Of a stretch of 64,000 nt of DNA, positions 5,634 to 62,082 are shown in pieces. Position numbers and translations under genes: made by a program. Source of the DNA: Acidobacteriota bacterium (GTDB taxonomy: Bacteria; Acidobacteriota; Terriglobia; Terriglobales; Acidobacteriaceae); NCBI GenBank assembly GCA_003225555.1, contig QIAM01000065.1, positions 62,001 to 126,000 of the forward strand. The letters run 5' to 3'. The notes beneath the pieces are model-generated. The model was not told where the DNA came from. It did no database searches and saw nothing but the letters and a program-made list of their open reading frames with translations. Each line of letters begins with the position of its first letter. Positions within the stretch are counted from its first letter, which is position 1.

Positions 5634-5641
5634 CCAGCACG

Positions 5642-5842
5642 ATGCGTAGAAGCTCCCGAGCAGGCCGTTGGTTGATCTTGTTTTTTCTTTTATTCTTGAG
5701 CGCGGGTGTCGCTGCGGCGCCCGACGTGACGTTCACCGACATCACGCAGGCCATCGCAGGAATCGCGGCTGCCGCCGGCGCCCTTGCGGCAGGAGCACTC
5801 CCGGCGCAGCCGAGTAAACGATTACTACACATCGCGATATAA
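5642..5842 (+). CDS. Short exported ORF, possibly a remnant of a second CRTAC1-like gene
   Basis: This 66-codon frame starts 8 bases after the CRTAC1 stop. Residues 1-26 look like a signal peptide. The next residues (PDVTFTDIT) resemble the start of mature CRTAC1 proteins (compare PVVFTDVTATAG in the upstream gene), after which the sequence becomes an Ala/Gly-rich run with no family likeness. Its 3' end contains the predicted LacI-type operator and most of the -10 box of the GH127 promoter. It could be a small secreted protein, a truncated paralog, or a chance frame; I favour a remnant but cannot prove it. Confidence 0.3.
   Translation: MRRSSRAGRWLILFFLLFLSAGVAAAPDVTFTDITQAIAGIAAAAGALAAGALPAQPSKRLLHIAI
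5814..5825. promoter_or_regulatory. Predicted LacI-family operator upstream of GH127
   Basis: GTAAACGATTAC differs at one base from the perfect palindrome GTAAACGTTTAC found before the GH51 operon. It lies 44 bases upstream of the GH127 start codon and covers the position expected for the -35 box of the TATAAT promoter at 5838-5843. LacI-family proteins bind palindromes with a central CG such as this one. The regulator is probably the LacI-type gene at 13251-14255. Confidence 0.6.
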
Positions 5843-5843
5843 T
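5838..5843 (+). promoter_or_regulatory. -10 box of the GH127 promoter
   Basis: A perfect TATAAT lies 26 bases before the GH127 ATG. No good -35 hexamer is visible at 16-18 bases spacing; that position is taken by the palindrome at 5814-5825. This fits a repressed or factor-dependent promoter. Expected transcription start is about 5850. Confidence 0.5.
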
Positions 5844-5869
5844 CGCGTGGGCACTGCGAGGAGGAAACT

Positions 5870-7954: not shown

Positions 7955-7988
7955 CGTAAAGGACGAGTGGGCAAGAGATCGCTGGCGC

Positions 7989-9740: not shown

Positions 9741-9771
9741 AGGATGCGTCAGCACGGTCACGGAATCTGTG

Positions 9772-11433: not shown

Positions 11434-11454
11434 GCTTCACCCGGTTTTCAGCTG

Positions 11455-20152: not shown

Positions 20153-21709
20153 ATGGATGTTCTGAAAACTGCATTTCTTCTTTCTGTGATCGCGCTGTTC
20201 GTGGTTGCAACGCCCCGCGTTGCGCCGGCGCAAGGGGTAGACGCCCAAATGCTTCTGCATCCGCCGGCCGACAGTTGGCCAGGGTATCACGGTGATTATT
20301 CCGGAAGACGTCACAGCGCTCTCACGCAGATCACGCCGCAGAACGTGAAAAATCTGACTCTGGCCTGGGCCTTTCAGACAGACCAGCGGGCTGAAATCAA
20401 GTCCTCACCGCTGCTGGTAGACGGCATTTTGTACTTCACTGTTCCGGACAACATTTGGGCTGTCGATGCACGCTCCGGCCACCAGATCTGGCATTACACC
20501 AATCCCAAAGACAAGGGAGATCACATCGGGCATCGTGGCGTGGCCATGTACAAGGGATATCTCTTCTTCTTGTCTCCCGATGCACACCTTGTATCGCTCA
20601 ACAGCAAAGATGCGACCGTGCGCTGGGACATAACGGTGGCAGACGTCTCGAAGGGATATTGGACCACCATGGCTCCGCTCGTCGTCGGAAATCATGTGAT
20701 TGTTGGTGTTTCCGGGGACTTGGATAATTTGCCCGGCTACATCCGTGCGATTGATCCCGAGACAGGCGAAACGCAGTGGCAGTGGAATGCCACTCCCCCG
20801 GCGGGAACCCCTAATCAAACGACCGGCGGAATGACCTGGATGACTGGAACCTACGATCCGGATCTCAATCTGGTTTACTGGGGAACGGGGAACCCGACTC
20901 CTGTCCTGAACGGTAAGACGCGGCCTGGCGATAATCTCTATACCTGTGCGATCGTCGCGTTAAATCCGGATACGGGAAAGCTAGCATGGGCCTTCCAAGT
21001 CTCTCCGCACGACACTCACGATTGGGATGCCGTCCAGATTCCTGTGCTGGTCGATGGAGACTTTCACGGCGAGCCGAAGAAAATGCTGATGCAGGCCTCG
21101 CGCAACGGCTACTTCGTTGTTCTCGACCGCACCAACGGGACGAATCTCTTGACTGTTCCGTACGGCCCAGTGAATTGGTCCCTTGGAGTCGATAAGCAGG
21201 GCCGCCCGATTCCAAATCCCGCCAAAGAGCCCGCCCCCGATGGACGCCTGATTGCGCCTGACGAGGGTGGTCTGACCAATTATCGCTCCCCCAGCTTCGA
21301 CACCAAGAATGGTTTGCTTATCGTGGATGCCCATCCTAGTTGGAGCATTTACTTTACCAAGCCCGCCGATGGAGCCTACGGATGGGCGGGCGCAGATTAC
21401 GACGTTTGGGGCAAGGGCGTGATCGAGGCCATCGATTATCAGACCGGAAAGATCCGCTGGAGCCATGAACTCGGGCCCAGAGGATCAGGCGCAGGCGTGC
21501 TGACCACGGATACGGGGATCACCTTCACCGGCGACGCGATGGGCAATTTCCTGGCCTTGGATTCGAGCGATGGCAAAACGCTTTGGCACGCGGGCTCAGG
21601 CGCCCGCACCCAGAGTTCTCCAATCACGTACCAACTTGACGGTCAGCAGTATGTGCTGACCAGCAGCGGCGGCGTTATGTTTGCATGGACACTTCCGGAA
21701 GGGCTATGA
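20153..21709 (+). CDS. PQQ-dependent dehydrogenase (eight-bladed quinoprotein)
   Basis: The 518-residue protein has a signal peptide (residues 1-25) and W-motif beta-propeller blades of the methanol/ethanol/glucose dehydrogenase type. Recognisable parts are WPGYHGDYSGRRHSALTQI at the start, YWGTGNPTP and RPGDNLYT near the expected catalytic Asp, then HDTHDWDAVQIPVL. The adjacent Cys-Cys disulphide of methanol dehydrogenase is not present, and there is no fused cytochrome domain. It therefore needs a separate electron acceptor, probably the dihaem cytochrome encoded upstream. The substrate, an alcohol or sugar, is not determined. Confidence 0.87.
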   Translation: MDVLKTAFLLSVIALFVVATPRVAPAQGVDAQMLLHPPADSWPGYHGDYSGRRHSALTQITPQNVKNLTLAWAFQTDQRAEIKSSPLLVDGILYFTVPDNIWAVDARSGHQIWHYTNPKDKGDHIGHRGVAMYKGYLFFLSPDAHLVSLNSKDATVRWDITVADVSKGYWTTMAPLVVGNHVIVGVSGDLDNLPGYIRAIDPETGETQWQWNATPPAGTPNQTTGGMTWMTGTYDPDLNLVYWGTGNPTPVLNGKTRPGDNLYTCAIVALNPDTGKLAWAFQVSPHDTHDWDAVQIPVLVDGDFHGEPKKMLMQASRNGYFVVLDRTNGTNLLTVPYGPVNWSLGVDKQGRPIPNPAKEPAPDGRLIAPDEGGLTNYRSPSFDTKNGLLIVDAHPSWSIYFTKPADGAYGWAGADYDVWGKGVIEAIDYQTGKIRWSHELGPRGSGAGVLTTDTGITFTGDAMGNFLALDSSDGKTLWHAGSGARTQSSPITYQLDGQQYVLTSSGGVMFAWTLPEGL

Positions 21710-27137: not shown

Positions 27138-28445
27138 CTACTGGCTGCCGGACAAACTCGCCGAACCAAAGGTCTCGGGAGGATCAAAAAAAGATTGATG
27201 CCACAGAGCGGCGTCTGACCACTTACCTGCCTTCCATTGCGTGAGAACAGCGACCGGAACCGCGATCATCCCTCCATCCGCGGAGTCGAAGATCAGCACA
27301 ATCCCGGCTAACTCTTGAGCTCTCTTCTCTAAGTCCGCGTAGTTTTTTTCGAGCAGAGACTTTGCGAATTCGAGCTTCAGCTTCGGGCCCTCGTCCTTCG
27401 CAGATTCATCAGTCCTCTGCACCGAAATGAGTTTCACGCTCTTACCGCGAAGAGGCGCCCAATCGCCGGGAAAGGGAGCCGTCTCCTCCCGAGTCACATG
27501 GAAGAGTTCGTCGGCCGCAGGTCTCGGGGCGGACACGGCGTGGGCGTCGACGACGTCCGGGATGCCGTCGGGCATCTCGAGGCTGTTGCGCCATATCCAT
27601 CCTCGCGACAGGCCCGATATCCGCACATGAACCCAATTTGCATTGAAGTTGAGCATTTCAAACTCATCGTGCGCACTGGCGAGAAAGAGAGCCTTGGCGG
27701 TCAGGCTGGGCGTCGCGACCACAGGAGTACCCGACTTTTTGACTGCCACCAGGTTCTTCGGATGTGCCTGGTTCTTGAGAATCTCCTCAAGATTCTTTGC
27801 CTCAGCTTGCAGGTCTTTGTCTGTTTCGATGACTTGCTTCTGTAGTGGAAGTTGCTCTCTTGCCGAAAGACTTTGGCGCAACGACGAAGAAAAGGTGCCC
27901 CCGGTTTCGGGCAATTTCGGTGCTGGAGCAGAGGCCCCGGTTTTCTCCGCGGTCGTGGCCGGTGCGGCTGTCGCAGCCGTCTGATTCCTTGCGGGGGCGC
28001 TCACTACCTTTGGCGTGAGCTCATCAGATAGCTGATCCAACAGATCAGTTTCCAGGCGACCGTTGGAGGTCAGCAAGCGATATCCGGAATGAGAAACCAC
28101 AGGATCTGCGTACCAGGCTGTGATCTTGGTACTGACCCGTACTACCGACCCGCCCGAGGGACTCGAGCTCACCTGCACGGTGGACTGGTAATAGGCGCGC
28201 TGGTAGCGCTCCAATGAGTGGCCTGCGGGATCAACAAAGCCCTCCAGCGCGGGAAGCCGTCCGGCGATGGATGCCTGCACTTTTCTGAGAATTTGCTCGA
28301 CCGCATTCTTGGATTGGGGGAATGTGCGTTCCGAAGCGTTAGAAGTCTGCGATCGGCTGGACGCGGCGAAGCAGAGAAAGAGAATCAGCACAAAGGCAAT
28401 CAGGAAGCGCCCTGGACATCGCCCGGAGAGCCTGGATAGCCTCAT
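27138..28445 (-). CDS. Exported SH3-like domain protein of unknown function
   Basis: The 435-residue protein has a signal peptide (IAFVLILFLCFAASSRSQ). Residues about 40-140 form a domain I do not recognise, followed by an Ala/Pro/Thr-rich linker and a helical stretch. A bacterial SH3-like domain follows (about 235-290, AKALFLASAHDEFEMLNFNANW with GWIWRNSLE), then a C-terminal domain of unknown type. SH3-like domains of exported proteins often bind peptidoglycan or peptides. Its start overlaps the stop of the upstream gene in an ATGA, so the two are translationally coupled; both carry SH3-like domains and may work together in the envelope. Confidence 0.7.
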   Translation of the reverse strand: MRLSRLSGRCPGRFLIAFVLILFLCFAASSRSQTSNASERTFPQSKNAVEQILRKVQASIAGRLPALEGFVDPAGHSLERYQRAYYQSTVQVSSSPSGGSVVRVSTKITAWYADPVVSHSGYRLLTSNGRLETDLLDQLSDELTPKVVSAPARNQTAATAAPATTAEKTGASAPAPKLPETGGTFSSSLRQSLSAREQLPLQKQVIETDKDLQAEAKNLEEILKNQAHPKNLVAVKKSGTPVVATPSLTAKALFLASAHDEFEMLNFNANWVHVRISGLSRGWIWRNSLEMPDGIPDVVDAHAVSAPRPAADELFHVTREETAPFPGDWAPLRGKSVKLISVQRTDESAKDEGPKLKLEFAKSLLEKNYADLEKRAQELAGIVLIFDSADGGMIAVPVAVLTQWKAGKWSDAALWHQSFFDPPETFGSASLSGSQ

Positions 28446-29365
28446 GGTAACTGCTCCAACTGGTCGCGGGAAATCCAGCCGTGCTGTCCGTCGTGAGTTT
28501 CGATTCCGTACCAGTAGGGCGTAGAAATCAGAATCAGCACCTCGGTCCCCGGCGGAAGAGAACGGAGTGTGCTCGCCGTGCTGAATGGCGAGGCCTTGAG
28601 CGGTGCGCCCGGTGACTTCACTAACCGTTCGACCTGTCGGCGAAGATTCTGCAGGTGCTGCTCTGGAGATTCTTCAGCCTTTGGAGCGACAGGAGGTTGC
28701 TGAGAGTCCTCGGGCGAACGCTCTTCGCCACGCACAGGAGGTTGAAGCACCGTAGGGAGTGAAGGGTCGTCTTTGCTGAGCAGTTTCCGGCTGACAAGTT
28801 GCTGGCGCGATTGAGCCGCCTCCGCCGCCTCCTGCTTGATCAATTCCATCGCTTCCAGATGATCGTGGATGTCTTTGTATTCGGCGCCCTCGACAGAGCC
28901 ATTCGAAGCGTGCACGGTGTGGCGAAACTCCTCGACGAAAACAGCGTCAATGCGCAGGACTGAATTTTTTTCGCCCTGACCCTGCACTACGTAACGTACG
29001 GCCAGTGTTCCGAGATCGCCACCATCTTTGAAGTTGCGGGGATCCAGCGCGTGGGTCCGTATCTTATAGAAAACTTTGCCGCCTTCGGTCCATGCGGGAA
29101 ACGCTCGGGTGGAGGTAGCCTCGTTAGCTCCCGCGACGTATTCGTCCTTGTTGTATTCCTTGGTACCTCGAATGATGGTGTTCTTAACTACTTCATCCAC
29201 GGCTTGGGCGACTTCGGCTTCAGGCATCGGTACATTCACGCTCAGTCCTGCGCCGTAATGCATGCCGTCCTTTTCTCGGCCTTCTGCGGGCAGGTGTCCG
29301 AACCCGAGGGCAACAACTCCCGCCAACAGGAATAAGGAAACGGCATGGTTTCGGACGCCGAGCAA
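28442..29365 (-). CDS. Exported protein with C-terminal SH3-like domain
   Basis: From the TTG at 29365 the product is 307 residues with a signal peptide (SLFLLAGVVALGFGHLPAEG). The frame is open to 29485, and the start is uncertain because no clear RBS is seen at either place. The mature N-terminal domain (starting MHYGAGLSVNVPMPEAEVAQ) is not one I know. A helical, Gln/Glu-rich linker follows. The last 60 residues form an SH3-like domain ending in GWISRDQLEQLP, similar in plan to the domain in the next gene. It is translationally coupled to that gene by an ATGA overlap. Confidence 0.65.
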   Translation of the reverse strand: MLGVRNHAVSLFLLAGVVALGFGHLPAEGREKDGMHYGAGLSVNVPMPEAEVAQAVDEVVKNTIIRGTKEYNKDEYVAGANEATSTRAFPAWTEGGKVFYKIRTHALDPRNFKDGGDLGTLAVRYVVQGQGEKNSVLRIDAVFVEEFRHTVHASNGSVEGAEYKDIHDHLEAMELIKQEAAEAAQSRQQLVSRKLLSKDDPSLPTVLQPPVRGEERSPEDSQQPPVAPKAEESPEQHLQNLRRQVERLVKSPGAPLKASPFSTASTLRSLPPGTEVLILISTPYWYGIETHDGQHGWISRDQLEQLP

Positions 29366-29485
29366 GGGCCGATGTCCCGCCGTCCGGTGCCGTATTGAGC
29401 TATGTCGGTGAAGGGCCGTATGCCCGATCAATCGCGATCTCCCGCCGCAGAGATTCTCATACTCCGCCGCTAGCGACCCTGTCAA

Positions 29486-29810
29486 CCTCGACGAGGGGGC
29501 GTGTATCTGTGGAAAATGGGCGAAATACCGGGGAAAAGAGCAGAAATACGCAGAGGGACAAGCAAGAATGTAAAAACATTGTCAATAATTTGTCTTAAAC
29601 CTCTTGAATTCGGTTTGCAGCCCATAGTACGATTCGTCCCCGGTAAGGTGGTCGGACCTGATGCTGGATTGTAAAGCTACGTTTCAGGTTCTTGACTCGG
29701 GGGAGCAGTCTTCTCGCTCGGGCGCTTCCGGCTTACCCGATTCTCGCCGTTTGTAGCTGTGGGAACATCCTTAAGTCCGACAAAACACGTTGAGTTGGAA
29801 GGAGTGCGGC
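29486..29810 (+). promoter_or_regulatory. Gene-free leader with candidate promoter of the cytochrome-oxidase operon
   Basis: This stretch lies between divergent units and holds no convincing gene. The best promoter candidate is TTGAAT at 29604-29609 and TACGAT at 29628-29633, 18 bases apart, each matching the sigma-70 consensus at 4 of 6 positions. That would leave a leader of about 170 bases before the Cyc2-like gene. I see no riboswitch fold that I can name. Confidence 0.3.
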
Positions 29811-31217
29811 ATGCGTATGGGTACGCGATCTCGCCTTTGCCAGCAGTTGTCGTTTGCAGCGTCTCTCCTGACTTTTGCTCTGATAACGGTTTTCCTGGTC
29901 CTCAGTACGAGTCAGCCCGCCAATGCCCTACCTCCCTTCGCCCGAAAATATGGCTTGCGTTGTTCAGCCTGTCATGAGTCGTGGCCGATGCTCAATTATT
30001 TCGGCCAGAAGTTCAAAGACAACGGCTACCAGCTGATGAACGATAGGGATGCGCCGATCTGGCAGAATCCATCGTACTGGCCTATTACTCTGCGCATGAC
30101 TCCGTCATGGAGGCGGGAGAGCGCAAACAAAGTGGCGGTAGACAGCGCTCCGACCGGCGAACAGCGACTAACCACCAGCGGCTTCAACCTTAGCGGATTG
30201 GACATTCTCACCGGCGGCACACTGGAGAAGAACATTACCTTCCTTCTGGTTCCATCCGCCGATGAGTTTGGTGCCTTCCACTTCGAGTCGGCCAATGTAC
30301 GGTTCGACAACCTATTCCACAGTCCTTGGCTGAACCTTAAGATGGGAAAATTCGAGCTGGACAGCTTCATTTCTGAGAAGCGGACCCTGACACTTTCGAG
30401 CAGCGGCGGCGGCTATCAGCTCTTCCACTTTATCCCGGTAGGTGACGGAAACATTTTCGGACAACTCGGCGATAACCAACTCGGCGTCGAATGGATGGGG
30501 CACTCCGACAACGATCGGACCCGCCTTTCCGCAGCGCTGATCAGTTCTACCGACGGCAATGTTGACGTGCCTTACGGCCAGAACTCGTACAGCGTGTTCT
30601 TTGCCGGCAGTCAGGCCTTTGGCGCGGGCAAGCTTGGAGTCCAGCGCATCGGTGGATACGCCATGTTCGGACAGGCCCCGACAACTTACCTGACCAGCGC
30701 TGGAATACCCATTCCAGGCTCCGGACTGGGTAACAAGACTTATAGCCGCGTGGGCTTCGAAGGGCTGTTCTACCTCGGCAGCCACCTCGACTTTCAAGTC
30801 TTTACGCAACACGGTTCCGATAGCGCCTGGTTCGGCGCATGTTTTGGAGACATCATCACAGGGACCTGCGACCCCGCCAACAACAACACTACGGGAGTAC
30901 TGCCTCCTGGAACTCGCAACCCCACCTGGAACGGCGCTTTCGTGGAGACTCACTTCGTCTGGAACCCACAATTCACGATCTTCCAACGCTCTGAGTGGGT
31001 CCGAATGTCACAACAAGCTATTCCCGGCACTCCATCTAACCTTGGCAACATTGACAACTACGTCTTCGGCTACCGTTACAACCCGTTCATGACGAGCAGG
31101 GCGGGCTTCGCGCTCCACAATGAGTATTCCTGGATCCGACAGCGTGGCACTTCACCCGTGACCTTCACAGACCTGAGCACCAACAGCCTGATGCTTGGAT
31201 TTGACTTTGACTTCTAG
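29811..31217 (+). CDS. Cyc2-like fused monohaem cytochrome-porin
   Basis: The 468-residue protein has a signal peptide (cleavage near residue 39, PANA). One haem-c site follows at once, Cys51-Cys54-His55 (CSACH), in the context FARKYGLRCSACHESWP then LNYFGQKFKDNGYQL. This matches the pattern of Cyc2 cytochromes (FAR-x-G-x-x-C-x-x-C-H, P-x-L-N/T-x-F-G-x-x-F-K-x-x-G-Y). The remaining 380 residues are Gly/aromatic-rich alternating strands ending in Phe (LMLGFDFDF), as in an outer-membrane beta-barrel. Cyc2 carries electrons from Fe(II) across the outer membrane in iron oxidisers. Here the donor is unknown. The ATG at 29811 has an AAGGAG RBS 7 bases upstream. It is the first gene of a cox operon. 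Confidence 0.75.
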   Translation: MRMGTRSRLCQQLSFAASLLTFALITVFLVLSTSQPANALPPFARKYGLRCSACHESWPMLNYFGQKFKDNGYQLMNDRDAPIWQNPSYWPITLRMTPSWRRESANKVAVDSAPTGEQRLTTSGFNLSGLDILTGGTLEKNITFLLVPSADEFGAFHFESANVRFDNLFHSPWLNLKMGKFELDSFISEKRTLTLSSSGGGYQLFHFIPVGDGNIFGQLGDNQLGVEWMGHSDNDRTRLSAALISSTDGNVDVPYGQNSYSVFFAGSQAFGAGKLGVQRIGGYAMFGQAPTTYLTSAGIPIPGSGLGNKTYSRVGFEGLFYLGSHLDFQVFTQHGSDSAWFGACFGDIITGTCDPANNNTTGVLPPGTRNPTWNGAFVETHFVWNPQFTIFQRSEWVRMSQQAIPGTPSNLGNIDNYVFGYRYNPFMTSRAGFALHNEYSWIRQRGTSPVTFTDLSTNSLMLGFDFDF

Positions 31218-31229
31218 AGAGGGATAGAG

Positions 31230-32096
31230 ATGCGGACGAGATTGCAGAAGTGGTCGCTCTTACTGGGCGCAGCTGCGGTTTTGGCGCTCCCACCGGCTTC
31301 CTGCGCACAACTCACCCAGTACGACCTGGAGTCGCGCATCGGCATGGAAAGCCACATCGGAAGTATTACCGGTCACGCCAAGGATGCCAAGACCGCCTAT
31401 CGCCGCTACTGCACCGGTTGTCATGGTGACTTAGGCGACGGAAATGGCGAAAACTTTCCCTGGGTTGACCCCAAGCCCCGGGACTTCCAATTGGGCATAT
31501 TTAAGTGCCGCTCCACACCCACGGGAACTTTGCCGACCGACCAGGATCTCTTCGACACCATCGCTCGCGGCCTCGACCGTTCCAACATGCCGCAATGGAG
31601 TACCTTCACAAAAGAGGAACGCGCAGACCTTGTAGCCTGGGTTAAGCACTTTTCTCCGCGCTGGGTAAACGAAAAACCGGGAACGCCGATTGAGATTCCG
31701 CCCGAGCCAGAGATCACACCCGAGCGCATCAAAGCCGGGCGCGATGTCTACGCCCGGGTGCAATGCTGGAAGTGCCACGGCGTGCTGGGTCAGGCCAACG
31801 GGCCGTCAGCCGCGACCCTCACGGATGATCTCAGCCGTCCGATCGCGGCCTACAACTTCACCGAGGGATCCCGGCCAAAATGCGGCGACACCGATCGCGA
31901 TATTTACAGGGTTTTCATGACCGGCCTGGATGGTACTCCGATGCCGTCGTTTGCCGACAACATCAAGCCCGATGAGGCATGGGATCTCGTTTTCTATCTG
32001 CGAACCCTTATGTCTCAGCCCAGCAAAGCAAAAACGATGGCAAAACAACTTGGCCTGAAGCCGGTTGATCCCAATGCCCCAGCCGGGCAACAGTAA
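31230..32096 (+). CDS. Periplasmic dihaem cytochrome c
   Basis: The 288-residue protein has a signal peptide (residues 1-26) and two cytochrome c domains. The haem sites are Cys61-Cys64-His65 (CTGCH) and Cys179-Cys182-His183 (CWKCH). Likely axial Met ligands lie in NMPQW (Met120) and in TPMPSF near residue 235. Starting 12 bases after the Cyc2-like gene, it holds the place of cyc1 in the rus operon of Acidithiobacillus ferrooxidans, where a dihaem cytochrome passes electrons to the oxidase. A periplasmic carrier between outer-membrane cytochrome and CoxB is the natural inference. Confidence 0.9.
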   Translation: MRTRLQKWSLLLGAAAVLALPPASCAQLTQYDLESRIGMESHIGSITGHAKDAKTAYRRYCTGCHGDLGDGNGENFPWVDPKPRDFQLGIFKCRSTPTGTLPTDQDLFDTIARGLDRSNMPQWSTFTKEERADLVAWVKHFSPRWVNEKPGTPIEIPPEPEITPERIKAGRDVYARVQCWKCHGVLGQANGPSAATLTDDLSRPIAAYNFTEGSRPKCGDTDRDIYRVFMTGLDGTPMPSFADNIKPDEAWDLVFYLRTLMSQPSKAKTMAKQLGLKPVDPNAPAGQQ

Positions 32097-32114
32097 CATT
32101 TCAAGGAGATTTCG

Positions 32115-32858
32115 ATGAGGAAGGAATCCAGTTTCGCGGCCGTGCTGTCGGCCGTCGTTCTAGTGTGCAGTGGCGCCTTGATCCTGAACCAAAAGGTCAG
32201 CGCCGCTGGAGAAGGAAAGATTAGCGGTACGGTCAGGCTTGACGGCCCGGCTCCCCACATGAAGGGCATCGAGATGTCAAAGGATCCCTACTGCGCCAAG
32301 GCCCATGCCAACGAGCCCGCCCACCTGGAACAAGTGGTAGTTGGTTCGAACGGTGGATTACAGAATGTCGTTCTCTACATCACTGAAGGCTTGCCAGCCA
32401 GCGCGCTCGCCGAGGCGCCGAAGGAAGTCCTGGTATTCGATCAAAAGAACTGTATGTATACGCCCCATGTGTTGGCAATGGATGCGGGTCAGACATTCAA
32501 GGTGACGAGCAGTGATCAAACCACCCACAACATTCATCCGCTGCCCAATCCGATGACCGGCAATATTCCCTGGAATCAGTCCCAGCCACCGGGAGCGGCG
32601 CCGATCGAGAAGAGCTGGAAAGCTCCGGAAGTGATCCCCGTAAAGTGCAACATCCATCCCTGGATGAATGGCTGGCACGTCGTGGTCAAGGGGCCGTACG
32701 CAGTGACCGACGGGAGTGGCAATTACAGCATCAACAACGTGCCTCCCGGAAACTATGCGGTGACCGCCTGGCAAGAACTCTACGGTACTCAAACGCAAAA
32801 GGTGACGGTCGCGGCGGGTAAGGCGGGAACGGCCGACTTCACCTTTAAGGCGAAGTAA
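32115..32858 (+). CDS. Exported cupredoxin-like protein with C-terminal carboxypeptidase-regulatory-like domain
   Basis: The 247-residue protein has a signal peptide (about 1-30). Residues 35-190 resemble a plastocyanin-like domain: THNIH supplies a candidate His138, and KCNIHPWM supplies Cys178, His181 and Met184, the set of a type-1 copper site. The Cys-x2-His-x2-Met spacing is shorter than in plastocyanin. Residues 192-247 look like a carboxypeptidase-regulatory-like beta-sandwich (YSINNVPPGNYAVTAW). An AAGGAG RBS lies before the ATG. It sits between a dihaem cytochrome and coxB, so an electron-transfer or CuA-related role is likely but unproven. Confidence 0.75.
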   Translation: MRKESSFAAVLSAVVLVCSGALILNQKVSAAGEGKISGTVRLDGPAPHMKGIEMSKDPYCAKAHANEPAHLEQVVVGSNGGLQNVVLYITEGLPASALAEAPKEVLVFDQKNCMYTPHVLAMDAGQTFKVTSSDQTTHNIHPLPNPMTGNIPWNQSQPPGAAPIEKSWKAPEVIPVKCNIHPWMNGWHVVVKGPYAVTDGSGNYSINNVPPGNYAVTAWQELYGTQTQKVTVAAGKAGTADFTFKAK

Positions 32859-32946
32859 GAAATGGAATCGGTCGGAGAGCGCCGCGTGACACCAGCCTGC
32901 GGCGCCCTTTTCTCAGTAATCTGACGGAGCCGGAGGGCGAAGCACC

Positions 32947-33750
32947 ATGGCGAAGTTCTTTGCGATCACCATCCTCGTAATCGCGATCCTCTCCGCGATT
33001 CCCATCCTGCGGCACACGTGGTGGATGGCAGAAGATATCTCGACCCACGGTGCGCCGATTGACGAGCAGATGTCAGAAACGATGGCGGAGGCAGGAATTT
33101 CGTTCCTGGCTTCCCAATTCATCCTCGCGTTTTTTATCTGGAAGTTTTCCAATCCGCGCCCCGGTGAGAAGATCAAGAATTTCCCCGGAGGCGCCAAAGC
33201 TATGGTCTGGGCCGCTGTTCTGTTGGTGGGAACGGAAGTTCTGGCACTGGGTGTTTTCGGGGCAAAGGCCTGGGCGAACGTCTATTTCACTCCACCCTCA
33301 TCGAGCGCCATGCCGGTCCAGGTTCAATCGGGACAATTCGCCTTTTACTTCCGCTATCCCGGCCCGGATGGAAAGTTTGCCCCCATCCATCCGGAACTCA
33401 TCAGCGAATCGACCCAGAACTTCTATGGGTTGGACACGAACAACGATCCGGACGCGAAAGACGACATCGTTACTGCGGAAATGGCGATCCCGGTGAACCG
33501 GGAGATCCATTTGCTCATGCACTCAAAAGATGTGGGACACTCATTCTTTGTTCCGGAGCTAAGGGTGCAGCAGGATTTCGTCCCCGGCTTGGACCTGTCT
33601 TTGCATTTCACGGCCACCAAGGTTGGCAGGTACGAGATCGTATGCACTCAGCTTTGCGGTCTCGGCCATTACAACATGAAGGCCTACCTTTCGGTGTTGT
33701 CCCAGCAGGACTTTGACGATTGGATGAAGAAGGAAGCGGCAATGCAGTAA
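32947..33750 (+). CDS. coxB: Cytochrome c oxidase subunit II
   Basis: The 267-residue protein has three hydrophobic segments (about 3-21, 50-66 and 84-108), then a periplasmic CuA domain. CuA ligands are visible: His198 in DVGHSF, then Cys233, Cys237, His241 and Met244 in CTQLCGLGHYNM. The position usually taken by Glu between the cysteines is Gln235; its ligand is a backbone carbonyl, so the site should still form. There is no fused cytochrome c, unlike caa3 subunit II. The domain accepts electrons from the cytochromes or cupredoxin encoded just upstream. Confidence 0.92.
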   Translation: MAKFFAITILVIAILSAIPILRHTWWMAEDISTHGAPIDEQMSETMAEAGISFLASQFILAFFIWKFSNPRPGEKIKNFPGGAKAMVWAAVLLVGTEVLALGVFGAKAWANVYFTPPSSSAMPVQVQSGQFAFYFRYPGPDGKFAPIHPELISESTQNFYGLDTNNDPDAKDDIVTAEMAIPVNREIHLLMHSKDVGHSFFVPELRVQQDFVPGLDLSLHFTATKVGRYEIVCTQLCGLGHYNMKAYLSVLSQQDFDDWMKKEAAMQ

Positions 33751-33800
33751 GGAAATGCCGGTCGCCAAGGTGGCGGCGGAAAGATCTCTTGAGGTGACCA

Positions 33801-35591
33801 ATGCACGATGCGTCAGCGCACAATCAGGTAGCACACCATGCGCCGCCGACCAGTTTCATCCGGAAGCACGTTTTCAGCCTGGACCACAAAGTCATCGGGA
33901 AGCAGTATTACGGGTTGGCTCTGGTGGCTGTGTTGGTTGGCATGGCTCTGTCGTGGTTGATGCGCATCCACCTGGGATGGACGAACTTTGCGATTCCGGG
34001 GTTGCATTTGCTTTCAAAAAATGGCGCTCCCGGAAACGTGATGACGCCGGAATTCTATCTGCAATTGATGACCATGCACGCCACGATCATGGTCTTTTTT
34101 GTGCTTACGACGGCGCCGTTCGCGGCCTTCGGCAACTACTTTTTGCCGATCCAGGTCGGGGCCGAGGACATGCCGTTTCCGCACTTCAACATGATGTCAT
34201 TCTGGGTCACGTTCGTGGCGTTCCTGGTGCTAGTGTCTTCGTTCTTCGTTGGCCAGGGACCCACCCTTGGCGGTTGGACACAGTACGCGCCGCTGAGCGC
34301 ACTGGGAGAAGTTACCGGCCCCGGCCAGGGGTCGGGAGTGGTCCTCTGGGCGATATCCATTGCGATGTTCTGCGTGGGCCAGTTGCTGGGCTCCTTGAAC
34401 TTCATCACCACTACGCTGGATATGCGGACCAGGGGCATGAGCCTGTGGCGGTTGCCGCTCAGCAGTTGGAGTTGGTTCATTACTTCCTGCATGGGCCTGA
34501 CGGCTTTCGCCGTGCTGATGCCAGCCTGCATCCTCCTCATTCTGGACCACGTTGCGGGCACCAGCTTTTTCGCGCCAGGCGGTAGCGTCATCAACGATCA
34601 AGTGCAACCGCACTCCGGCGGATCGACTCTTCTATGGCAGCACCTCTTCTGGTTTTTCGGACATCCTGAGGTCTATATCGCGATCGTGCCTGGGATGGGC
34701 ATTGTCTCGCATGTTCTGGTTACCAACATGCGCAAGCCGATGCTCAGCCACAGAGTGTTGGTCTACTCCTTCGGCGCTCTGGCTGTCCTTAGTTACATGG
34801 TTTATGGGCATCACATGTTCGTGAGTGGGATGAATCCGGTTTCGTCGCTGGCATTCTCTTTTCCCACTTTGATCATCACCATTCCCTCCACGGTTATCGT
34901 GCTGATCTGGCTGGGAAGTCTTTACGGGGCAAAGTTGCGCATCAATGCGGCCTCGCTCTTCTCTCTGGGGTTTATCTCGATGTTCATCGCCGGAGGGGTG
35001 AGCGGCTTCTTCCTGGCGCAGCCTTCGACCGACATCATGCTGCACGCGACTTACTTTGTGGTGGGGCACTTCCACATGGTCATGGGTGTGGCGGCGATGT
35101 TCGGGATTTTTGCCGGAACCTACTTCTGGTTCCCGAAGATGTTTGGCCGCATGATGAACGAAACCCTGGGCAGGATTCACTTCTGGTTCAGCTTCGTCGG
35201 TGCCTATGCGATTTTCATGCCATTCCACTACCTGGGCATGGCGGGAAATGTGCGCCGCTACCAGGCATTCACGCCGGACTACATGCAACCACTCGTTCCC
35301 TTACACCAGTTCATCACCATCGCTGCATTAGTCACCGGCGTAGCGCAGCTCGTCTTCCTGTACAACCTGTTCCACAGCCGATTCTGGGGTAAACCCGCTT
35401 CGGACAACCCGTGGCAAGCTACCTCCCTGGAATGGAGCACGCCGACCACGCCGCCGCCGCACAACAACTTTGGCGACAAGCTGCCAGAGGTTTACCACGA
35501 TCCGTATCAGTACGGCGTGGAGAGCTCGCTCGGGGACTATGTGATGCAAGCCTCTCCGGAACAAGTGAAGACCGTCCACGACGAGGCGTAA
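33801..35591 (+). CDS. coxA: Cytochrome c oxidase subunit I
   Basis: The 596-residue membrane protein has the 12-helix core of haem-copper oxidases. The metal ligands are present: His93 (low-spin haem, TMHAT), His288, His337 and His338 (CuB; FFGHPEVY and YGHHMF), and His423 and His425 (haem a3 and low-spin haem, VGHFHM). Tyr292 of HPEVY is the expected cross-linked tyrosine and Glu290 the end of the D-channel, which indicates an A-type enzyme. It reduces O2 to water while pumping protons. It starts 50 bases after coxB and is followed by two subunit-III-like genes. Confidence 0.95.
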   Translation: MHDASAHNQVAHHAPPTSFIRKHVFSLDHKVIGKQYYGLALVAVLVGMALSWLMRIHLGWTNFAIPGLHLLSKNGAPGNVMTPEFYLQLMTMHATIMVFFVLTTAPFAAFGNYFLPIQVGAEDMPFPHFNMMSFWVTFVAFLVLVSSFFVGQGPTLGGWTQYAPLSALGEVTGPGQGSGVVLWAISIAMFCVGQLLGSLNFITTTLDMRTRGMSLWRLPLSSWSWFITSCMGLTAFAVLMPACILLILDHVAGTSFFAPGGSVINDQVQPHSGGSTLLWQHLFWFFGHPEVYIAIVPGMGIVSHVLVTNMRKPMLSHRVLVYSFGALAVLSYMVYGHHMFVSGMNPVSSLAFSFPTLIITIPSTVIVLIWLGSLYGAKLRINAASLFSLGFISMFIAGGVSGFFLAQPSTDIMLHATYFVVGHFHMVMGVAAMFGIFAGTYFWFPKMFGRMMNETLGRIHFWFSFVGAYAIFMPFHYLGMAGNVRRYQAFTPDYMQPLVPLHQFITIAALVTGVAQLVFLYNLFHSRFWGKPASDNPWQATSLEWSTPTTPPPHNNFGDKLPEVYHDPYQYGVESSLGDYVMQASPEQVKTVHDEA

Positions 35592-35622
35592 TGATCGACC
35601 GGTGATTGGAGTTTGTGGTCTT

Positions 35623-36294
35623 ATGGCGACAACTGTTCACGAACCACCAAAAATCGACGCAGGCCGGGATTCGACGCGGCTGCCAGGTAACGGCAACTCG
35701 CGGAACCTGGTTCCCGCGGATGGCAAGTTGCCTGCCGTGAGGGACTATTCTCCGCCGCCAGCTTCGACCGGCATCTGGGTCGTGCTCGCATCCATCGGGA
35801 TGAGCTTTCTCGCGTTTACCAGCGCCCTGGTCGTTCGGAAGGCAGCGCTGGATTGGCAGCATTTGACTCTTCCTCCAATTCTTTACCTGAACACGCTTGT
35901 GCTCATTGCCAGCAGCTTTGCACTCGAGGTAGCGCGCCGCCGGATTGGCGCCTTCATGCGCCGACGGGAAAGTCAGGTCGCCAGCCCAACTCGCTGGTTG
36001 TACATGGCTCTGTTCCTGGGGTTGCTTTTTGTTGCCGGCCAGTATGGGGCCTGGCTGCAATTGCGTTCCCAGGGCCTCTATCTGAGCACGAATCCCAACA
36101 GTTCTTTTTTCTACGTGCTGACGGCGATTCACGCTCTGCATGTGCTGGGCGGCCTGACCGGCCTGGCCCGAGTGGTTTACCGGCTGAATAAGTCGATCCT
36201 GCGGAAAAGCACTCTGGACGCCACTGCCTACTACTGGCACTTTATGGACGGGCTTTGGCTGTATCTACTCGTGTTGCTGTGGATGAAGCTTTAG
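35623..36294 (+). CDS. Cytochrome c oxidase subunit III-like protein, first copy
   Basis: The 223-residue protein has a hydrophilic N-terminus of about 45 residues and then five hydrophobic segments. The end (YYWHFMDGLWLYLLVLLWMKL) matches the last helix of subunit III, where HF-x-D-x-x-W is conserved. The ATG at 35623 was preferred to the GTG at 35602 because a GGAG lies about 11 bases upstream; neither is certain. A second subunit-III-like gene follows directly, so the two may be a split or duplicated subunit. Confidence 0.85.
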   Translation: MATTVHEPPKIDAGRDSTRLPGNGNSRNLVPADGKLPAVRDYSPPPASTGIWVVLASIGMSFLAFTSALVVRKAALDWQHLTLPPILYLNTLVLIASSFALEVARRRIGAFMRRRESQVASPTRWLYMALFLGLLFVAGQYGAWLQLRSQGLYLSTNPNSSFFYVLTAIHALHVLGGLTGLARVVYRLNKSILRKSTLDATAYYWHFMDGLWLYLLVLLWMKL

Positions 36295-36318
36295 CATGCG
36301 AAATCGAGAGGAGGCACC

Positions 36319-36936
36319 TTGAGCCAAGCGGGAATGACGGCGGGAGGACACGCAGGCCTGATGGAAAGGCCGATGTTTTCAGTTCCCGCGAAAAAAATGG
36401 CGATGTGGCTGTTCATTATCGCCGACACCACGACCTTTGCCGCCTGCCTGGTGGCCTATGGATTTATCCGCAATGCCAATCCAAACTGGCCCAGACCGTT
36501 CCACAGCATCACCAACCTGGCGCTGATGACGTTTATCCTCCTCACCAGTAGCTTAACCATGCTCATGGGAGTCCGGGCGGCGAAGGCAGGCGACAAATCT
36601 GGTGCTCTGCGCTGGACTCTGGCAACCGCTGCCTTGGGCATCATGTTTGCCTTGCTGCATCTCCGTGAGTGGATGACGCTAATCCATGAGGGCATGAGGC
36701 TCTTCAAAAATCCCTGGGGCACCGGGCAGTTTGGTGCGGCATTCTACAGCATTACCGGCCTGCATCTCACGCATGTCACGGGCGGAGTAATCGCGCTGGT
36801 TGCCGTGGGATTACGCTACAAAGCTGGCCGTTACAACGCCGATGACCTTGAAATCCTAGGTCTCTACTGGCACTTCGTGGATCTGGTTTGGATGTTCGTC
36901 GTGCCCTTGGTGTACCTGTTGAATCTAGCGCACTGA
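36319..36936 (+). CDS. coxC: Cytochrome c oxidase subunit III-like protein, second copy
   Basis: The 205-residue protein has five hydrophobic segments and the subunit III motifs GLHLTHVTGG and LYWHFVDLVWMFVVPLVYL. A GAGGAGG RBS ends 4 bases before a TTG at 36319, which is taken as the start; an ATG at 36334 is the alternative. It is closer to standard subunit III than the preceding gene. Subunit III stabilises subunit I and helps keep the proton path active. Confidence 0.88.
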   Translation: MSQAGMTAGGHAGLMERPMFSVPAKKMAMWLFIIADTTTFAACLVAYGFIRNANPNWPRPFHSITNLALMTFILLTSSLTMLMGVRAAKAGDKSGALRWTLATAALGIMFALLHLREWMTLIHEGMRLFKNPWGTGQFGAAFYSITGLHLTHVTGGVIALVAVGLRYKAGRYNADDLEILGLYWHFVDLVWMFVVPLVYLLNLAH

Positions 36937-36957
36937 CGAGAGGCGGAGCAATTCACT

Positions 36958-37266
36958 ATGACAACGGAAACGCAAAAGAGCGGTGGAATGAAGAAGGACC
37001 TGGTCGTCTACCTCTGCTTACTGGCTCTGGCAGCGATACAGTTCGTCATTGCCTACCAGAGCATCGACGCCTCGCAAATGTTAGTACGCATGCTGATCGT
37101 TGCTATCGTCGAAGCCGCTTTGGCGCTATTGTTCTTCATGCATCTGGCGGAAAATCGCGGGCTGTTATGGTTTGTTGTGGTCTTTACAGTTTCTGTGTTA
37201 CTGACAATGCAGTATGGGTGGACGGATGCCTTCCGGTTATCCGCAGGTGCGCCTTGGGCAAAGTAG
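36958..37266 (+). CDS. coxD: Cytochrome c oxidase subunit IV (prokaryotic type)
   Basis: The 102-residue protein has three hydrophobic segments and matches prokaryotic COX4 proteins: a charged start, then LVVYLCLLALAAIQF, a middle segment with ALLFFMHLAENRG, and a last helix. It is a small accessory subunit of the oxidase. A purine-rich RBS (GAGGCGGAG) lies about 10 bases before the ATG. It closes the cox series and is followed by a small Cys-containing membrane protein. Confidence 0.87.
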   Translation: MTTETQKSGGMKKDLVVYLCLLALAAIQFVIAYQSIDASQMLVRMLIVAIVEAALALLFFMHLAENRGLLWFVVVFTVSVLLTMQYGWTDAFRLSAGAPWAK

Positions 37267-37295
37267 AGTCGGAAGGTGTAGCCCTGAGGAGAGAG

Positions 37296-37565
37296 ATGAG
37301 GAAGGTAATCGGACCTATCGGCGTCGTGATCGTTGCCCTGATCATCTTGGTCACCGCGGCGCCGGCTTGCGCCCAAAGCTGCGCGCTCTGTTACACGCAG
37401 GCGGCTTCTTCCGGCTCTCGAATGATTCAGGCATTGAAAAGCGGGATTCTGATCCTCATCGTTCCCCCCACCCTTGGATCCATTGGCATGATTTTCGTGG
37501 TATATCGCAAACGCAATCAGGTCAGACGGGGGGACAACGCGCCTGACTCTGATCGCGATTGGTAA
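37296..37565 (+). CDS. Small Cys-containing membrane protein after the cox genes
   Basis: The 89-residue protein has a signal-like first hydrophobic segment (VVIVALIILVTAAPACAQ), then CALCYTQAASSG, and a second hydrophobic segment (ILILIVPPTLGSIGMIFVVY) with a basic tail. The Cys-x-x-Cys next to the membrane faces the periplasm in the likely topology. I cannot name a family. The place directly after coxD, 29 bases away with a strong RBS (GAGGAGAGAG), suggests a role in oxidase assembly or copper handling, which is an inference. Confidence 0.7.
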   Translation: MRKVIGPIGVVIVALIILVTAAPACAQSCALCYTQAASSGSRMIQALKSGILILIVPPTLGSIGMIFVVYRKRNQVRRGDNAPDSDRDW

Positions 37566-37776
37566 CCGGAAGGAAACAAACACGCCGCGGTGAATTCTTC
37601 TAGCGAGCTCTTTCGCCCATAGTCCTTTTCTGTTATTGCCTTGAAGTCCTGTTCGCGATTCAATCTTCCACCAACATTATCGAGAAGCTTTGCGCAATGC
37701 TGCTGTTCTGGCGCGCATAAGCTTCTGCCTGTTCTTCTTTTTGGGGACAGAATACAGATCTCTGCGGGGGTGGGGC

Positions 37777-40700
37777 TTGAGTAAATTGCTATTCGTTCCT
37801 CTACTGATTTGTCTGTCCGCGTTTGGCCAAAGCAATTATGCCAGACTGGGCGGCACTGTAACCGATCCGCAGGGCAAGCCGTTCGTCGGGGCCGATCTGC
37901 AACTCACCGCATCCAGCACGCAAGCCGTACGCCGCTCTTCCAGCAACGACCAGGGAATTTTCGAGATCACCAGCCTGCTCCCCGGTGACTATGAGCTCAA
38001 CGTGCAAGCCCCAGGGTTTGCGCCTCTAACCCAAAGCCTCCGCCTTGAGGTAGGCCAGCGCATGGCACTGAATCTTACCCTCAAGGTTGCCGTAGTGAAG
38101 GACGTCGTCGAAGTCGGCGACGTCGCGCCTGCCCTCCATTCCACCGACGCTTCCGTGGGAGAAGTCATCGAGCCTGTCGCAGTTCACGACTTGCCCCTCA
38201 ACGGCCGCATGCTCGTTGACCTGATGCTGATGGTACCCGGGGCACACGCGGGCCACGGCGCCCAAACCGGAAACATGAATCCTCTTTACTGGCGCCCTGG
38301 GCAACGCTCGGCCGTGAGCATTGGCGGCAATCGTCCCAATGCAAATTACTTCCTGCTGGATGGAACCACCGATACCGATCCGACTTTCAACACGCTGAAC
38401 CTGAGTCCGTCTCCTGACGCCGTGCAGGAGTTCAAGGTGCAAACCGGAAGCTACTCTGCGGAAATGGGAGGCGCAGGCGGCGGCCAGGTCAACATCGTCA
38501 CGCGGTCCGGCTCCAACCAATTCCACGGAACGGTCTATGAGTTCCTGCGCAACGGCGCAATGGACGCCACTTCCTTCCAGTCCATGGGCAACAACCACAT
38601 GGTGCAGAACAATTTTGGCGCCTCGCTCGGCGGCCCGATCATCCATAATCGGACTTTCTTCTTCGCTAACTACGAAGGCTTCCGTCACGCCATGACCCAT
38701 AGCATGATCGACACGGTTCCGACCCCGGAGGAAGTAGCTGGAGACTTCAGCATGAGCGGCGTGAATATTTATGACCCTACCAACAATCGCGCACAATTCC
38801 AGTACAACGGCATGATGAATGTGATTCCCCCTACGCAGATCAATCCTGCCGCCCAGGCCTTCCTGCACAAGTACGTGCCCCAGCCCAACGTGACGATGGG
38901 GATGACGATGCCTTGCGGCGCTGCCATGATGGGGAACCCAGGAGTGGTCGGCGCCGGAATGGACTGCAATAACTACATGGACCAGCGCAATGCACTCGAA
39001 GTAAACAACCAGGGCACGGTCCGTGTCGATCAGATGTTCGCGAAAGGCGACACGCTCGCCGCCCGCTATTCGCTCAGCGGCGAGACCGGCTTCACGCCCG
39101 GTGAAATGCCTCCTGGCGGTGTAGGCAGTCTGTTACCCGGCTTTGGCTCTTACAACGATAACTTTTCCCAGCAGGGCGCTGTTTCCTGGACAAAGATTCT
39201 CAGCCCCACCCTGGTGAACACGGCGGCAATCACGGTCTCGCGTTTGGCCATGCACCGTTACGACCAGAACGCGTATACCAAAGACATCGTCACTGAACTT
39301 GGCATTCAGGGTGCGGGCTTTGGGGGGGCGGGAGCCTTTGGCGCGCCATTTTTCAACGTGCAGGGATACTCGCCGATGGGCGATAACTACTCGGCAACGC
39401 CAATGAAGGCTTGGGACACAATTCTCGAAGGCCGTGACGAACTCAGCTGGCGGCACGGCCGCCACAACCTGCAATTCGGCGGCAGCTATCGTCGCTACAT
39501 CTGGCCCATGTGGGGATTCTTCCAGAACCGCGGCTACTACCAATTCACCAACGGCTTCACCACCGACAACGGCACCAACGACGGCACCGGGTCGGCGCTC
39601 GCCAGTTTCCTACTCGGCCTTCCCGCCGTGAAGCAGCGCCAGGCGGGCATTCCGCAGATGCAGCTTCGACAGTGGTATGTCGATGGATTCGTCCAGGACA
39701 GCTTTCGCGTGACTCCCACGCTTGTGATTCAGATGGGACTGCGTTACGAATTCATGGAGCCGCTGCTCGACATCAGCTACACCAATTCAAATCTCACGTT
39801 TAGTAGTGGTGCTCCGTCGGCTTTCATCGGTGGACAGAACGGCTTCCCCAAAGGCCTGAAGTATTCCAACCCGCACAACTTCGCTCCGCGTTTCGGAATT
39901 TCCAAGGCCTTCAGCGACCAGGGAATCGTCTTGCATGCTGCCTACGGCATCTTCTTCACGCCGGTCGATATGAACACGTGGTGCAACCAGCGCCACAATG
40001 TTCCGTACGTTTTCCCGGAGACCCAGCAGAGCGACAACTTCACACCGTCGGCATCGATCCTCGCCAACCACCTGAACTTTGGTCAGGCCGTACTAGGTCA
40101 AACGACGGTAAGTTTCACTGCCATGGATCCCCACGCACCCTCGCAATACATCGAGCAGTGGAGCGGTTCGGTGGAGAAAAGTCTGGGCCATCAGACGACA
40201 CTCGAAATTGGCTATCTCGGATCGCACGGCGTTCATCTGCAGCGGGCGCACCTTATCAACAACGCGCCTCCAGGGCCTGGAGCCATTGGCCCACGACGAC
40301 CGTTGCCAAAGATCAGCTTCGTCGCCGGCACCGTTCTGCCCGCGAACGTAACCTACACCCCGCCCACCACGGGTTGCCCTAATAACCAGATATGCTTTCC
40401 CGTCAGCACCATCAACCTGCTGGAGAACACCGCGCAGAGTTACTACGATGCTGGCTACGTTAACATCCGCCGCCGCTACTCGCGCGGTCTGACCTTCCTC
40501 GCGAATTACACCTGGGCAAAGGATCTCAGCGACGCGCCCGATTTCCGCTCGCCCATGTTTGAACCCTCGATTCCCCAGAACAACAGTGACCTCGCCGGCG
40601 AGCGAGGTCCGGCATGCGACATCCGCCACCGTTTCGCTCTCAGTGCCGTCTACGATCTCCCCGCCTGGGACCATTCCGGCACCGTGCGGGCCGTCACGAA

Positions 40701-61909: not shown

Positions 61910-62082
61910 AATCGTTCCTCAATGCCGGACGAATCCTGCTGGCGGCATTGCGGGAGATTTTCGACGAGGCTTCCTATTCTCGTTTTCTGCGCCGCGAACG
62001 GACGGAATCATCGCCTCAGGCCTACGCCGCTTTTTGGCGGGAGCGCGAAGCCGGACACACTCGCCGTCCACGATGCTGCTGA
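61906..62082 (+). CDS. YbdD/YjiX-family small protein, CstA partner
   Basis: The 58-residue protein starts in the CstA stop codon overlap and matches DUF466 (YbdD): a helical start, YSRFLRRERTE, a short segment PQAYAAFWREREA and a basic tail ending in Cys-Cys. In Escherichia coli the matching protein forms the partner of CstA-type transporters. The close coupling supports the same pairing here. Confidence 0.88.
   Translation: MKSFLNAGRILLAALREIFDEASYSRFLRRERTESSPQAYAAFWREREAGHTRRPRCC

Follow-up and report, generated by a model that had tools for sequence, protein, structure and literature searches.

A Cyc2-like porin-cytochrome at the head of an acidobacterial cox operon: a putative respiratory chain from an extracellular electron donor to oxygen

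The window analysed here is the whole stretch of 64,000 nucleotides at positions 62,001 to 126,000 of contig QIAM01000065.1, from an Acidobacteriota bacterium (family Acidobacteriaceae) whose assembly, GCA_003225555.1, has 114 contigs, amounts to 4.42 Mb and is 86% complete. Between positions 29811 and 37565 it carries nine genes, all on the + strand and with intergenic gaps of 10-88 bases (the start of the last gene being a guess), in which a Cyc2-like porin-cytochrome, a dihaem cytochrome c and a copper protein stand ahead of the genes for a cytochrome c oxidase, and which may together form a route for electrons from a donor outside the cell to oxygen. Every gene that the original prediction, made from the letters of the DNA, had listed for this interval on one strand with short gaps is present, as an open reading frame (ORF) and, for the cox genes and the dihaem cytochrome, by Pfam and NCBIfam matches. 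The gene set is however one of eleven, made up of the nine operon genes and two divergent genes for SH3-domain proteins at 27138-29440. The next gene past the set is a 1154-residue ORF at 37690.

The gene at the head, cyc2L (29811-31217, + strand), encodes a monohaem cytochrome fused to a predicted barrel of 16 strands, 468 amino acids (aa) in all, with its ATG at 29811 preceded by the ribosome-binding sequence GGAAGGAG. The protein has a hydrophobic start, a CSACH haem motif inside ALPPFARKYGLRCSACHESWPML, and F as its C-terminal residue. No Pfam or NCBIfam model matched it up to E 0.1, a sequence search of the PDB was empty and a profile search there gave one chance-level match (E 0.42), with the BBP2 porin being the sole Pfam match, in 5, among 73 aligned homologues. 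An AlphaFold2 model from that 73-sequence alignment (mean pLDDT 86.2, pTM 0.81), superseding a poor first model from 10 sequences (pLDDT 65.3), predicts a barrel, as had been proposed for this protein, and 16 strands were counted in it by hand, with two pairs of strand pieces that were unbroken in the first model joined and a piece of three residues within the cytochrome part left uncounted. The best solved structures found with Foldseek for this model are porins, including PorB, OprP and OprO, at query-length TM-scores of about 0.4-0.5. The cytochrome part of the model is less certain, with block means of 47-78 over residues 31-90.

Excerpts of PMC8406198 give as marks specific to Cyc2 the motif AXPXFAR[QK][TY] upstream of the haem motif and PXL downstream of it, with a C-terminal F or Y as a further mark, and describe the porin part as poorly conserved. 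cyc2L carries ALPPFARKY and CSACHESWPML, which agree with AXPXFAR[QK][TY] and with CXXCH...PXL, and it has 468 aa, against the minimum of 365 aa taken for Cyc2, and a single CXXCH close to the N-terminus. Amongst its homologues a single CXXCH is found in 79 of 80, and when 3 of the 80 loci are left out (two cut at contig ends, one with a frame problem) AXPXFAR[QK][TY] is present in 75 of 77, CXXCH...PXL in 77 of 77 and a C-terminal F or Y in 75 of 77. The direct BLASTP match to an Acidiphilium plasmid protein has one meaningful stretch of only 39 residues, hence profile comparison was used for the head protein, and against six Cyc2-like proteins of proteobacterial plasmids its profile gave a probability of 98.4 and an E of 4.8e-15 over 132 N-terminal columns. 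A tblastn search of 72,556 plasmids returned one partial match, in Methylocystis. Judged by sequence, cyc2L is Cyc2-like on the marks tested, and its cytochrome part shares homology with proteobacterial Cyc2-like proteins.

The second gene (31230-32096, + strand, 288 aa) encodes a dihaem cytochrome c with two Cytochrome_CBB3 stretches, and two CXXCH motifs are found in 74 of its 76 homologues. A profile built from 18 homologues matches 6h5l_B in the PDB at 1.6e-68, against an E of 2.1 across 16 residues only for 1h1o, which we take to be the structure of Cyc1 from A. ferrooxidans. The third gene (32115-32858, + strand, 247 aa) encodes a type-1-copper-like protein in which Pfam finds mainly a C-terminal CarboxypepD_reg domain. 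Its motifs THNIH...CNIHPWM, both kept in 63 of 69 homologues, offer His, Cys, His and Met as candidate ligands, and its best copper match in the PDB, a weak one, is the blue copper protein 5fc9 (E 0.0025) with amicyanins next at 0.15; rusticyanin gave no match up to E 10. The conserved motifs and the 5fc9 match support the earlier description of this protein as cupredoxin-like.

The oxidase itself is encoded, still on the + strand, by coxB (32947-33750, the CuA subunit), coxA (33801-35591, subunit I of an A-type haem-copper oxidase), two genes of the COX3 family, coxC1 (35602-36294, PF00510 at 3.1e-11) and coxC2 (36319-36936, PF00510 at 1.4e-12), and coxD (36958-37266, COX4_pro, PF03626 at 5e-8, 102 aa). 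In Pfam and NCBIfam searches the coxA product matches COX1 at 7.5e-124 and the coxB product COX2, with the CuA motif CTQLCGLGHYNM. The idea that this is the only oxidase of its host is ruled out by a second COX1 gene in the assembly, on contig 44 and inside a cox operon of its own, whose product shares 61% identity with the CoxA of the window.

The two oxidases differ in a feature that is kept throughout the clade of the window copy. CoxA was aligned, and a tree built, for 60 sequences, of which 54 are rows of the clade other than locus L143 (53 beside cyc2L, plus L146). The site of the K-channel lysine, K354 in what we take to be Paracoccus numbering, is I, L, V or M in 54 of 54 clade CoxA, and the D-pathway residues N113, D124, N131 and E278 are kept in the same 54, with Y280 unchanged and HPEVY present. 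Amongst the other six copies the lysine is kept in five, the sixth being that of L143, which has T and groups within the linked clade, and D124 is replaced in some of the six (by E in L143, Q in L144 and S in L147). Of the 60 linked CoxB, 59 have V, I or L in place of the glutamate E78 at the entry of the channel and one is unreadable at this site; E78 is kept in 4 of 5 paralogue CoxB, L143 again being the exception. All 60 linked CoxB have a new glutamate ten residues past the E78 site, later in the same membrane helix by an assignment made by eye, and among paralogues it is found only in L143. From six columns before the E78 site up to the new glutamate acidic residues are absent in 60 of 60, so that the finding of E78 loss is robust to small shifts in the alignment. 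The loss at both ends of the K-channel together with a new acid in a membrane helix suggests a re-routed proton supply.

Two copies of this kind stand apart from the rest. Locus L143 (G343:C53:8000-24000) has a CoxA and a CoxB of the same clade that likewise lack K354 and E78, and its genome shows no cyc2L at E 1e-40; locus L146 (G147:C38:4000-22000) has at 7426-12687 the cox set of the clade and the copper protein, without an adjoining cyc2L or dihaem gene and preceded by genes for secreted-looking proteins. In model oxidases K-channel mutants are almost inactive. Variants of the K-channel are known in archaeal oxidases of family A, where excerpts of PMC8239418 count seven losses under one of two hypotheses, so the loss as such is not new; among the literature matches listed there was no report of it for this acidobacterial lineage.

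An intact D-pathway also bears on what the oxidase may be for. Acid soils are metal-rich, and the set has a copper-protein-like member, both of which would suit an explanation in which Fe(II) or Cu(I) is oxidised at the surface for protection or for metal acquisition, with any gain in energy being incidental. An A-type oxidase that has kept its D-pathway suggests energy conservation instead, and we regard this housekeeping or detoxifying role as improbable.

The last gene of the operon (37305-37565, + strand, about 86 aa, start unsure) encodes a small protein with the motif CALCYTQ (CxxCY), for which Pfam gives no family and NCBIfam a single match below threshold. The motif C[AS]LCYTQ is found in 14 of the 15 homologues passing E 1e-30, the protein is kept at the same place of the operon among relatives, and a weaker relative adjoins the other cox operon of the host. 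On the - strand, divergent from the operon, lie sh3a (27138-28445, 435 aa) and sh3b (28442-29440, about 332 aa, with an ORF start possible at 29485), which overlap by four bases. The SH3_3 domain is detected in 11 of 18 sh3a homologues, though not in the window copy of sh3a itself, and in 13 of 19 sh3b homologues. The divergent pair lies beside cyc2L at 57 of the 63 loci where the upstream sequence extends for 3.6 kb or more, and elsewhere SH3 genes are found on the operon strand, being inside the operon in L126 (11381-13674), directly behind cyc2L in L124 (4615-5550) and at the end of the operon in L119 (17259-19495). As they travel with the operon in these three loci they are taken to be real parts of the set. 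The divergent intergenic region of 370 bases (29441-29810) is where promoters are presumed to lie; a promoter and terminator scan gave background level, with no promoter-like site on the + strand in 29300-37800.

The set is far from confined to this genome. A scan of 84,980 species genomes gave 284 relatives of the head protein, and the best 80 of the 284 were analysed. All 80 titles are of metagenome-assembled Acidobacteriota, amongst them Candidatus Sulfotelmatobacter, Terriglobia, Acidobacteriales and others, with one Candidatus Acidiferrum typicum and one Acidipila; palsa, bog or fen occurs in the isolate names of 25 of the 80, and a sampling depth in cm is given in a further 19 titles. 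The name Candidatus Acidiferrum also denotes a genus of Ferrovaceae in the excerpt of PMC13390463, which is not the source of locus L110. Where at least 8 kb of sequence is available downstream, the dihaem cytochrome, copper protein, coxB and coxA follow cyc2L on the same strand at 49 of 51 loci, with coxC1, coxC2, coxD and the small protein additionally present in 47 of those 51; the exceptions are L094 and L123, without cox genes, L119, without a coxC1 match, and L130, without a coxD match. Recurrence in dozens of genomes rules out that the set is a rarity or an accident of assembly.

The association was also measured in 200 genomes of the same family, with an orthologous coxA defined as at least 71% identity (the next lower value being 63%). 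Such a coxA is found in 44 of the 200 (four partial) and cyc2L, at E up to 1e-40, in 49 of 200, therefore the earlier view that such a set would be unusual in a heterotroph was not right. cyc2L is present in 40 of the 44 coxA genomes against 9 of the 156 others, and in 37 of the 40 both are on one contig within 12 kb (Fisher p 1e-28, the genomes being related and not independent). It could be supposed that an outer-membrane protein and a cox operon have merely come to lie side by side by chance, but the 49 of 51 loci and the 40 of 44 genomes contradict this, and its probability is close to nil.

The manner in which the set has been inherited is also informative. When pairwise distances were correlated across 45 loci for three blocks (cyc2L, the dihaem-copper pair and the cox pair), the values were 0.84 for the dihaem cytochrome with the copper protein and 0.87 for coxB with coxA, and 0.29-0.45 between blocks. 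This suggests that the blocks may have been swapped without disturbing the gene order, and such a history would point to selection acting on the set as a unit. In locus L034 (G278:C59:87000-106000), from another acidobacterial family, a Cyc2-like porin-cytochrome, dihaem cytochrome and copper protein lie at 4800-11055 beside a cbb3-type oxidase, with a CcoN-like COX1 (4.3e-75) and a FixO/cytochrome fusion (FixO 2.4e-38), so these three proteins accompany oxygen reductases of more than one kind.

The set is best read, as the original prediction had it, as a chain leading from an outside donor to a terminal oxidase, and more closely as a dedicated respiratory chain from an extracellular donor to O2, the donor being a small soluble reductant and most likely Fe(II); to this reading we give a probability of about 0.6. 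Gene anatomy, predicted fold, conservation, co-occurrence and residue changes were computed, and from these we infer localisation, the order of electron transfer, the donor, the proton path and the role of the SH3 proteins. The Cyc2-like protein would sit in the outer membrane as a barrel holding one haem and take an electron from the reductant, which the dihaem cytochrome c, the copper protein or both would then ferry through the periplasm to the CuA of CoxB, with CoxA reducing O2. CoxA and CoxB would be a specialised paralogue of the other aa3-type oxidase of the host, which has retained the D-pathway and from which the K-channel lysine and the entry glutamate are gone, and the new membrane glutamate of CoxB may belong to a replacement route for protons. 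A probable role for the SH3 proteins is to anchor the chain at the cell wall or to assemble it there. For ordinary respiration the genome has its second, K-bearing oxidase available.

The host would run such a chain alongside the use of organic carbon. A search for the RuBisCO large subunit, positive in 5 of 14 control genomes and made without a search for other routes of CO2 fixation, found it in 0 of 20 genomes with the oxidase, thus the electrons would give an organotroph extra energy and would not power a Calvin cycle. In the window a GH127 beta-L-arabinofuranosidase and an alpha-L-arabinofuranosidase are encoded at 5870-7954 and 9772-11433, which fits an organotroph that degrades plant polymers, and at 20153-21709 there is a PQQ-dependent dehydrogenase-like protein (PF01011 at 9.4e-74), a possible further source of periplasmic electrons. 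These genes, and the want of RuBisCO in 20 of 20, agree with the heterotrophic host that had been proposed.

The choice of Fe(II) is made because Cyc2 proteins of tested function, one for each cluster of three, oxidise Fe(II) according to the excerpts of PMC8406198 and PMC7029218. The same chain could nevertheless run on another donor, for example on Mn(II), on humic or phenolic compounds in reduced form or on a shuttle of another microbe, with the barrel admitting a small reduced molecule. The hosts are acidobacterial genomes from metagenomes, 25 of 80 with the peatland names given above, and without RuBisCO in the 20 of 20 tested, the sequence does not set the potential of the haem, and the anatomy does not tell donors apart; against this stand the tested Cyc2 proteins, which oxidise Fe(II) in each of the three clusters. 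A donor other than Fe(II) is judged somewhat unlikely, although it is the most serious of the alternatives.

Several observations weigh against a chain fed by Fe(II) through cyc2L. The homology to the Cyc2-like references is limited to the cytochrome domain and the first strands, with none reported over the remaining barrel, and those references are plasmid proteins of unproven activity, some without the full motif and none with proven Fe(II) oxidase activity. Within the family sample nine genomes carry cyc2L without an orthologous coxA and four carry the coxA without cyc2L, two of the latter having a coxA cut by a contig end. The K-less state of L143 and L146, which lack cyc2L in the genome or in the neighbourhood, means that loss of the K-channel and presence of Cyc2 do not always go together. 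Across the phylum, 75 of 297 genomes have matches to the head protein at E up to 1e-5, mostly to the N-terminal part only, and among the loci inspected many of these distant matches have other neighbours, thus the haem motif alone does not mean Fe(II) oxidation.

Some of these distant acidobacterial proteins with a similar N-terminal haem motif (L040-L047, L049 and L050) are near a copper or CarboxypepD_reg-like protein, and that of L042 is also near a protein with 8 CXXCH. The distant haem-motif proteins may represent a larger family of monohaem barrels.

A further point on this side is that loci L094 and L123 have cyc2L but no cox genes nearby. Such loci would also suit an outward flow, in which the porin-cytochrome sheds electrons in the reduction of Fe(III) and the cox operon is a mere neighbour, and the excerpt of PMC10715153 attributes Fe(III) reduction in acidithiobacilli to an isoform of Cyc2. 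The tight co-occurrence with an O2 reductase, which in L034 is a different O2 reductase, argues against this, and outward flow appears slightly more improbable still than the protective role considered for the oxidase.

Some of the ground had been covered before. Excerpts of the literature place Acidobacteria among the homologues of the Leptospirillum cytochrome Cyc572 (PMC10654088), report a cluster 3 Cyc2 in one Acidobacteriota genome from a hot-spring metagenome (PMC9671151) and list two Acidobacteriota metagenome-assembled genomes with iron-oxidation gene families (PMC12501874). Among the titles and abstracts of the open-licence literature matches listed, no paper describes a cox-linked Cyc2-like operon in Acidobacteriota. 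Cyc2 in Acidobacteriota is thus already published; the cox-linked set and the K-less oxidase were not found in print within the literature searched.

If the reading of a chain from an outside donor to O2 is true, electrons from dissolved Fe(II), or from some other reductant outside the cell, can reach O2 in a common uncultured lineage of soil bacteria by a route the head protein of which is without a Pfam or NCBIfam model, and a mixotrophic player would be added to the turnover of iron and carbon in peat and thawing permafrost. The layout of the rus type would then have more than one origin, from parts that are not orthologous. The K-less CoxA and CoxB, with a K-bearing paralogue elsewhere in the genome, would offer a natural experiment on the proton route to the O2 site. 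In its fullest form the proposal would be that uncultured soil and peat Acidobacteria independently built a complete module from outside donor to O2 on the logic of rus, and re-plumbed a duplicated aa3-type oxidase by abolishing the K-channel at both ends, with a new membrane glutamate of subunit II taking over proton delivery, which would amount to a widespread lithoheterotrophic trait, probably the burning of Fe(II), in organotrophs and to a natural A-type oxidase free of the K-channel; this fuller version we put forward tentatively, at rather less than even odds.

It is the comparison with known systems that sets out what is shared and what is not. With the A-type (aa3) cytochrome c oxidases the window set shares the COX1 profile, HPEVY, the residues of the D-pathway and the CuA motif, and it differs in the uncharged residues at K354 and at E78 of CoxB and in the new membrane glutamate of CoxB. 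With the fused cytochrome-porins of the Cyc2 type, as excerpts of PMC8406198 and PMC7029218 describe them, cyc2L has in common its length, the single CXXCH, AXPXFAR[QK][TY], PXL, a predicted barrel and N-terminal homology, whereas its barrel is not alignable to the Cyc2-like references used. The Cyc2-like genes of proteobacterial plasmids (L131-L137) likewise have a gene for a c-type cytochrome closely behind them in 6 of 7 (not L136), but in none of the 7 is a cox gene annotated in flanks of 3-12 kb, in a plasmid gene table that is incomplete.

The closest likeness is to the rus operon of A. ferrooxidans, for which the excerpt of PMC10654088 gives the order cyc2, dihaem cytochrome, copper protein, coxB, coxA, coxC and coxD. 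The same order of functions is found here from the fused cytochrome-porin through to coxD, and the original prediction held up on this point. It does not extend to orthology. The second gene, with its match to 6h5l_B rather than to 1h1o, is not a c4-type Cyc1, and the copper protein has a CarboxypepD_reg tail; for rusticyanin, ctaA and ctaB, which the rus operon has at its 3' end, a scan confined to the proteins encoded at 27138-37565, and so reaching neither the next ORF at 37690 nor other parts of the genome, gave no match. There are two coxC genes, and SH3 proteins besides. The CoxA of iron oxidisers is of a basal type with two extra N-terminal transmembrane helices in the excerpts of PMC8239418, whereas residues 14-564 of the window CoxA align with solved oxidases from about residue 13-22 on, which leaves no N-terminal extension, and this CoxA is of the acidobacterial kind, a paralogue of the other CoxA of its host, without the K-channel lysine. 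Orthology with rus is accordingly rejected on the dihaem cytochrome, the copper protein and CoxA. As the same order is made from non-orthologous parts, the set is read as a parallel assembly, one that would work like the rus operon but is not a member of it.

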